Made by a program: the position numbers and the translations under genes. Positions 21,106-22,759 of a DNA stretch of 64,000 nt are shown one piece after another (within the stretch, counting starts at the first letter, position 1; every line of letters starts with the position of its first letter). Under the pieces are notes generated by a model. It searched no databases. It was given only the letters and a program-made list of their open reading frames with translations, and had not been told where the DNA came from. Source of the DNA: Bradyrhizobium sp. AUGA SZCCT0283 (GTDB lineage: Bacteria; Pseudomonadota; Alphaproteobacteria; Rhizobiales; Xanthobacteraceae); NCBI RefSeq assembly GCF_018130385.1, contig NZ_JAFCLU010000001.1:496001-560000 (forward strand). Reading direction: 5' to 3'.

Positions 21106-22643
21106 ATGGTTGCGCGGGTTTCTACCGTAGCCTTTGAGGGGATCGAGGCCCGCGCGGTCGACGTGCAGGTGCAGGTCGCTCCCGGCTTGCCGGCGTTTGC
21201 CATTGTCGGTCTCCCGGACAAGGCGGTCTCCGAGGCGCGCGAGCGGGTGCGCTCGGCGCTGATCGCCTCGGGGCTGGCGCTGCCGGCGCGGCGGATCACC
21301 GTCAACCTCGCGCCGGCCGATCTGCCGAAGGAAGGCAGCCATTACGATCTGCCGATCGCGCTCGGCCTGATGGCTGCGATCGGCGCGATCCCGCCGGACG
21401 CGCTCAACGGCTTTACGGTACTGGGCGAGCTCGGGCTCGATGGCTCGATCGCCCCCGTGGCCGGGGTCTTGCCGGCCGCGATCGGCGCCAATGCGCGCGA
21501 GGAAGGTTTGATCTGTCCGGCGGCGTGCGGAACGGAGGCCGCCTGGGCAAGCCCCGATATCCAGATCATCGCGGCAAAGTCGCTGATCCAGATCGCCAAC
21601 CATTTTAAAGGCACGCAGGTGCTGTCGCGCCCGCAGCCGAAAGTGCACGAGCCGGAGGCGACGCATCTCGACCTGCGCGACATCAAGGGCCAGGAAAGCG
21701 CCAAGCGCGCGCTGGAGATCGCCAGGCCGGCGGACATCATTTGCTGATGATCGGCTCGCCCGGCGCGGGCAAATCGATGCTGGCGGCGCGGCTGCCGTCG
21801 ATCCTGCCGCCGCTGTCGCCATCCGAGCTTCTGGAAGTCTCGATGATCGCCTCCGTCGCCGGCGAGATCCGCGACGGCGCCTTGACGGCACGGCGGCCGT
21901 TTCGCGCGCCGCATCATTCCGCCAGCATGGCCGCGCTGACCGGCGGCGGCCTGCGCGCCAAACCCGGCGAGATCTCGCTTTCGCATCAGGGCGTGCTGTT
22001 CCTCGACGAATTGCCGGAGTTCGATCCGCGCGTGCTGGATTCGCTGCGCCAGCCGCTGGAGAACGGCGAGGTCTCGGTGTCCCGCGCCAACCACCGCGTC
22101 ACCTATCCGGCCCGCTTCATGCTGGTCGCGGCGATGAACCCCTGCCGCTGCGGCCACGCCTATGAGCCCGGCTATTCCTGCAAGCGCGCACCGGTCGACC
22201 GCTGCACGTCGGATTACCAGATGCGCATCTCCGGCCCCTTGATGGATCGCATCGACCTGCGCATCGAGGTGCCGGCGGTGACCGCCGCCGACCTGATCCT
22301 GCCGCCGCCTTCCGAAGGCTCTGCGGAAGTCGCAGCCCGCGTTGCGGCGGCCCGCGACCTCCAGCTCGCGCGCTATGCCGCCGCCGGCATGCCGCATGTC
22401 CGCACCAACGCGGAAGCGCCGGCCTCGCTCCTGGAAACGATCGCGCAGCCGGATGCGCAGGGCCAGAAGCTGCTGCGCGACGCTGCCGAAACCATGAAGC
22501 TGACCGCGCGCGGCTATCACCGCGTGCTCCGCGTCGCCCGCACGCTCGCCGATCTCGACGGCGCGGAAAAGATCGGCCGGCTGCATCTGGCGGAGGCGCT
22601 GTCCTATCGCGTGCTGGCAGAGGATTTGAGAAGGGCGGCGTAA
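21106..22643 (+). pseudogene. comM: comM (YifB, Mg-chelatase-like AAA+ ATPase), split by a frameshift
   Basis: Two adjacent frames together make one ComM protein. 21106-21747 encodes the N-terminal Lon-protease-like domain (VARVSTVAFEGIEARAVDV onward to KGQESAKRALEIA). 21741-22643 encodes the AAA+ part with Walker A IGSPGAGKS, FLDELPEF and the Mg-chelatase C terminus. Between codon GCC at 21721 and GGC at 21729 one base is missing relative to the expected GGHHLLMIGSPG reading; restoring it would give 512 residues, the family length. The first frame stops at TGA 21745-21747, which overlaps ATG 21747-21749. ComM is a helicase promoting branch migration in natural transformation. The cause could be a real mutation, a sequencing error, or tolerated splitting. 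Confidence 0.88.
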
Positions 22644-22759
22644 TGCGCAACCGCGACAAATCAACTCGACGGGCAAATCACTTCTGATTTTCCGAAATCG
22701 TGTCAAGCCCGCAAATCAAAAATATTCTGCTTTCGTTCTCACCCAAATCAGTTGCACAA

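Follow-up and report, generated by a model that had tools for sequence, protein, structure and literature searches.

The question raised by this locus is whether a comM gene represented by two open reading frames (ORFs) has been inactivated, has been misread, or still functions in two parts. ComM is a branch-migration DNA helicase that aids the recombination of imported DNA and is tied to natural transformation in Gram-negative bacteria. The window, meaning here the whole stretch of 64,000 nucleotides that was analysed, lies on contig 1 of the draft genome of Bradyrhizobium sp. AUGA SZCCT0283 (designated G000; 8.07 Mb, 111 contigs).

Structure of the interrupted comM gene

The features of the locus are listed in Table 1. 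The tblastn search with the ComM orthologue of the closest relative, G232, aligned residues 1-206 with positions 21106-21723 and residues 208-512 with positions 21726-22640, and the two pieces were contiguous with no foreign DNA in between. The upstream ORF comprised the Lon-like domain, the linker, the first approximately 18 residues of the AAA+ domain and a 7-residue out-of-frame tail. The downstream ORF (300 aa counted from TTG, 298 from the ATG at 21747) comprised the remaining AAA+ domain from just ahead of Walker A and the C-terminal Mg-chelatase domain. When both pieces were counted together, PF13541, PF01078 and PF13335 were present in this order, with the first 24 or so profile positions of PF01078 absent from the downstream piece; ComM was thus not encoded in one uninterrupted frame. 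The sequence-only reading had described two ORFs in different frames with the stop TGA (21745-21747) overlapping an ATG (21747-21749), and both were seen in the sequence. Its remark that no homopolymer accounts for the break was also borne out, as runs of four or more bases were absent from 21690-21760. No second copy of ComM was found in G000, where the three other matches to PF13541 scored far lower; one of them was read as RadA, and the other two are presumably Lon, which their frame lengths fit. Both radA and comEC were full length in this genome. Immediately 3' of comM, G232 carried approximately 4.7 kb of additional DNA when compared with the window (at 22646-22647).

Table 1. Features of the comM locus, in window coordinates
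Feature	Position	Strand	Description and basis
5' part of comM	21106..21747	+	213 aa ORF; PF13541 match; tblastn with G232 orthologue
3' part of comM	21741..22643	+	ORF; PF01078 profile positions 25-206 and PF13335
Lesion	21721..21732	+	comM nt ~620, codon 207; alignments
TGATG stop/start overlap, incidental	21745..21749	+	read from sequence
Equivalent of comM nt 632-645 (island core elsewhere)	21737..21750	+	alignment; uninterrupted here

The gene had been proposed to be split exactly between its two domains. In an intact relative, Pfam placed PF13541 at residues 20-139, PF01078 (Mg_chelatase, AAA+) at 189-396 and PF13335 at 404-502, and this protein aligned with the Legionella ComM chain (8rxd) over residues 7-502 with nearly equal numbering. 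The Lon-AAA+ linker in the cryo-EM structure of Legionella ComM comprises residues 170-190, according to its published description (PMC11612176). As the linker ends near residue 190 and the numbering matches, codon 207 falls within the AAA+ domain, ten residues ahead of Walker A (217-224, read from the sequence). A split at the domain boundary is therefore excluded by the Pfam spans and the position of the Legionella linker. The Lon-like, AAA+ and C-terminal Mg-chelatase domains of Legionella ComM are also found here, whereas the gene in the window consists of two ORFs with the frame broken within AAA+. Of the 57 aligned rows of relatives, 54 also had TGATG out of frame, as a by-product of Leu-Met codons, and this incidental occurrence led to its rejection as a reinitiation signal. 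With the break away from the domain boundary and TGATG incidental, the suggestion of two polypeptides produced by coupled reinitiation retained little support.

Origin of the frameshift

The alignments showed that the window was one base shorter than intact relatives at approximately nt 620 of comM and that an adjacent substitution was also required. The base reported as missing at 21721-21729 is thus correct in terms of length, with the neighbouring substitution to be added to it. No change in length was found at comM nt 616-660 in any of the 57 rows (which include at least two species fetched twice). The comparison with close relatives proposed as a check showed an intact frame in all 57 rows; all of these are other species, so that they do not separate a sequencing error from a recent mutation. 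A break at codon 206-208 was seen in G000 alone among the matches listed for 265 genomes of the genus. The dN/dS values against seven relatives were 0-0.03 for the N-terminal piece and 0.03-0.07 for the C-terminal piece, the same as those among the relatives, indicating that the break is either recent or not real. These low values ruled out an old, decaying pseudogene.

A recent private frameshift probably inactivated comM in this strain, as judged from the sequence. Codon 207, where the frame is lost, belongs to the AAA+ domain, and the rest of both pieces is well conserved. The upstream product would keep the Lon-like domain without the ATPase, the downstream piece, if made, would have neither the Lon domain nor the beginning of the AAA+ fold, and no functional hexameric helicase would be expected to form. 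With radA and comEC intact, the other steps of recombination could continue, and the loss of comM might be tolerated for a time. The sequence-only reading had left inactivation, sequencing error and a tolerated split gene side by side; inactivation is the best supported of them because no relative shares the lesion, the break falls within AAA+ and the gene has been disrupted many times in the genus; an error is less likely, and the split gene finds little support.

That the consensus is wrong through an assembly or sequencing error, with comM actually intact, is rather unlikely but deserves serious weight, since the frameshift occurs in a single assembly and both pieces show the dN/dS of a constrained gene. 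Substitutions also accompany a deletion at another suspect site of the same draft, which has CCAGG in common with the comM site, and this could mean a systematic error. However, the site is not a homopolymer, two adjacent differences would have to be wrong, and the draft contained fewer frameshift-like genes than the single-contig assembly of G232 (five versus eight) when 424 kb of the window's contig was compared with 467 kb of G232. The 386 ORFs of G232 were matched in G000 by 263 in full frame, five frameshift-like (including comM and, by its position, one spurious antisense ORF) and 16 otherwise partial, with 102 unmatched, and the reverse comparison of 372 ORFs gave 263 in full frame and eight frameshift-like in G232. 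Base-level reading of three other frameshift-like sites suggested that in two of them (ORFs 104543 and 447306) the lesion may lie in G232 rather than in G000. An indel-rich draft was thus not supported, as G000 had no excess of frameshifts over G232, though a single error may have occurred.

It is very unlikely that the gene is a tolerated split in which coupled reinitiation at TGATG yields two polypeptides forming a functional ComM. The TGATG overlap, the open downstream frame and the observation that both comM halves stay open with undetected relaxation beside the islands of other strains are consistent with it, but the break lies within a domain, TGATG is shared out of frame by most relatives, and the split arrangement was common to none of them (0 of 57 rows). 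In addition, the Lon domain is described as a common hexamerization module in PMC11612176, although assembly of ComM depended mainly on ATP and DNA there. Still less probable is a scar left by imprecise excision of an integrative element formerly at the codon-211 site. The lesion is 12 bp from the core used by islands in at least 19 of the 265 genomes, a 23-nt deletion in G118 starts within the codon-240 insertion site, and G000 encodes one distant recombinase relative (40% identical), but the lesion lies outside the shared core, the left ends of islands have normal length there, no element sequence is left, and the recombinase relative (contig C85) is located in a different ORF. Programmed -1 frameshifting to full-length ComM can be given almost no weight; a -1 shift would connect the two frames, whose overlap spans 21609-21747, but the overlap contains no in-frame X XXY YYZ heptamer and none of the 57 rows has the frame change. 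The preferred reading is thus recent inactivation, and the frameshift itself is ordinary, one more inactive comM allele.

Disruption of comM and comEC in Bradyrhizobium

The census of comM covered 265 genomes of the genus in samples of 136, 65 and 64 with a match threshold of E 1e-40. At least 254 genomes had a match, and 11 had none among the matches listed. At least 24 splits of the insertion type were found. In at least 19 of the 265 genomes the gene was split at codon ~211 (N part ending at codon 214-221, C part starting at 207-213), the two parts sharing a contig in 14 of the 19, at distances of 3.9-39 kb, and falling on different contigs in five. At least five genomes were split at codon ~240, where the C part started at codon 240 and the parts were 3.6-4.4 kb apart. 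Contiguous frameshifts, read at the base level, were found in at least nine genomes, namely G000 and eight others. Three of these were multi-base deletions (8 nt in G160, 23 nt in G118 and 53 nt in G053), and the five single-base frameshifts (G057, G042, G213, G162, G190) were all in single-contig assemblies, so that some may be long-read indel errors. The coordinates showed that a 183-nt in-frame deletion in G083 removes Walker A, and G072 had a nonsense codon. The lesions elsewhere in the genus, with deletions of 8, 23, 53 and 183 nt, a nonsense codon and insertions, therefore go beyond single-base errors. The deletion in G118 (L155; comM nt 726-748) starts within the 8-bp insertion sequence (IS) site at nt 721-728 and could be an excision footprint.

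Several genomes were left out of these counts. Fourteen had a comM match starting at codon 26-57 (G191, G093, G041, G244, G060, G048, G137, G122, G046, G019, G182, G153, G148, G171); five distinct loci of this kind were read, each departing from comM at codon ~28-31, and two of the five carried serine recombinases (L033, L044). Also excluded were G225 and G168 (one piece or contig edge), late partial matches such as G099, G133, G258 and G138, and a frameshift at codon 219 in G268, a member of another family, which lies within a run of C. The split pieces of other strains gave median dN/dS values of 0.070 versus 0.053 for the N part (p 0.32) and 0.072 versus 0.060 for the C part (p 0.63). Relaxed selection on these pieces was thus undetected by dN/dS, and the insertions look recent or reversible.

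The islands at codon ~211 had a common core at comM nt ~632-645 at both ends. In the stretches fetched, phmmer found a large serine recombinase in 13 of the 16 sampled genomes of this class, and only one island end was fetched for the other three (G049, G001, G139). Ten of the 13 recombinases belonged to one family (the G052 copy in two frames), and those of G241, G240 and G112 were divergent. All three recombinases scanned with Pfam (L145, L158, L162) had Resolvase, Recombinase and zinc-ribbon domains. Most sampled islands had a second ORF after the recombinase, with no Pfam match in the two scanned, and the cargo of two (L147, L149) included an Mrr-type endonuclease, an AIPR protein and a Ulp1-type peptidase. 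The right ends of several islands (L145, L147, L149, L150, L151, L234, L235, L236, L239) supply an in-frame ATG before the AAA+ half, and the downstream half of comM could therefore still be translated. A contig of 7429 bases in G000 (L242, contig C85) encodes a serine recombinase 40% identical to that of L145; the left end of this element equals the junction of L044 at comM codon ~29 over 24 bases, and the element is located in another ORF. At codon ~240, the three elements read at both ends had terminal inverted repeats and what was read as an 8-bp target duplication, and the one scanned had an IS1595-type transposase.

The codon-211 arrangement extended beyond the genus. In a sample of 150 genomes of the order, the C part began at 209-211 in at least five outside Bradyrhizobium (G386, G331, G339, G375, G269), and for two of the five the matches listed also included the N part. 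A serine recombinase lay beside the C part in four of the five, that of G375 having no zinc-ribbon match, and was absent from the stretch fetched for G331. An Afipia contig had the same comM arrangement as the codon-211 splits beside a serine recombinase.

Other genes were compared in the sample of 136 genomes, in which at least 16 had comM insertions (13 at codon 211 and three at 240). The comEC gene was split with both halves seen in at least 16 of 136 genomes, 11 at codon ~401-413 and five at ~294-318 (G161, G233, G125, G087, G133, G107, G244, G042, G061, G261, G194, G135, G164, G041, G063, G044), the halves lying apart or on different contigs. These counts left out G256 and G051 (one half only), G236 and G258, which look frameshifted, and other partial matches such as G065, G099, G062, G259, G104, G221, G113, G238, G112, G072, G083, G160, G177, G144 and G247. 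One comEC element had a phage-type tyrosine integrase by Pfam, and the ORF of a second was similar by eye; the comM-type serine recombinase was found in none of the ten comEC loci fetched (L224-L233 among them). Insertions in radA were found in none of the 136 genomes, four partial matches (G202, G220, G227, G247) being taken as fragmentary assemblies, by assumption for G202 and G220. The neighbouring histidine-kinase gene likewise had no insertions in 136, with three partial matches at contig ends and one genome unmatched. This gene had two frameshifts in the single-contig assembly of G233 (L245), which may reflect long-read indel errors in that genome. Fisher's test gave p 2e-5 for comM versus radA, comM versus the kinase and comEC versus radA, values that serve only as a guide because the genomes are related. 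Contiguous comM frameshifts alone (at least five of 136 versus one of 271 pooled controls) gave p 0.017, weakened by the possible long-read errors. The DprA domain model gave only partial best matches in G083, G135, G240, G137 and G113 among the matches listed, and dprA may also be interrupted in some Bradyrhizobium. Many conserved genes serve as sites for site-specific elements, and with two control genes the preference for competence genes is a lead and not a proof.

Comparison with known systems and implications

Mobile elements in comM are already known, namely AbaR/Tn6022 and Tsy (PMC11472951, PMC10293859). According to PMC11472951, 22% of Acinetobacter baumannii strains have an inactivated comM, and loss of the gene reduces transformation with heterologous DNA. 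This inactivation by AbaR and other elements recurs as it does in Bradyrhizobium, but the lesion in the window is a small frameshift and not an insertion, and the insertions in other Bradyrhizobium involve different elements. The site-specific entry of Tn6022 (TnsF) and Tsy into comM also resembles that of the Bradyrhizobium islands. These known elements target Walker B by Tn7-type transposition or with tyrosine recombinases (PMC10293859), whereas the codon-211 islands enter before Walker A and use a third class of recombinase, a large serine recombinase being found in 13 of 16 sampled. Interruption of comEC, a transformation gene, by mobile DNA has likewise been described in Piscirickettsia salmonis and streptococci (PMC12955456). 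Disruption of comEC is called rare there, whereas at least 16 of 136 Bradyrhizobium genomes had its halves separated, at two sites. In the literature covered, which includes few subscription journals, we came across no description of Bradyrhizobium islands in comM or comEC, nor of serine recombinases at comM.

The integration pattern is more worth following than the frameshift itself. We tentatively propose, as one possible reading, that unrelated integrative elements preferentially insert into comM and comEC in Bradyrhizobium, and into comM also in further families of the order, with serine-recombinase islands and an IS at comM and tyrosine-integrase elements at comEC. Such a pattern could represent the conflict between mobile elements and transformation in a rhizobial form, where disabling the route able to remove them would benefit the elements; the frameshift in the window would then be one more inactive allele of a gene often lost and regained in the genus. 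In Bradyrhizobium, a genus of soil symbionts with large genomes, these two genes have been hit by integration repeatedly, and the same genomes show no insertions in radA or the neighbouring gene. The census yields sets of strains with intact, interrupted and frameshifted comM for measuring such a conflict. If selection is behind the pattern, the conflict would extend past the pathogens in which it was described, and natural transformation would probably matter in rhizobia.
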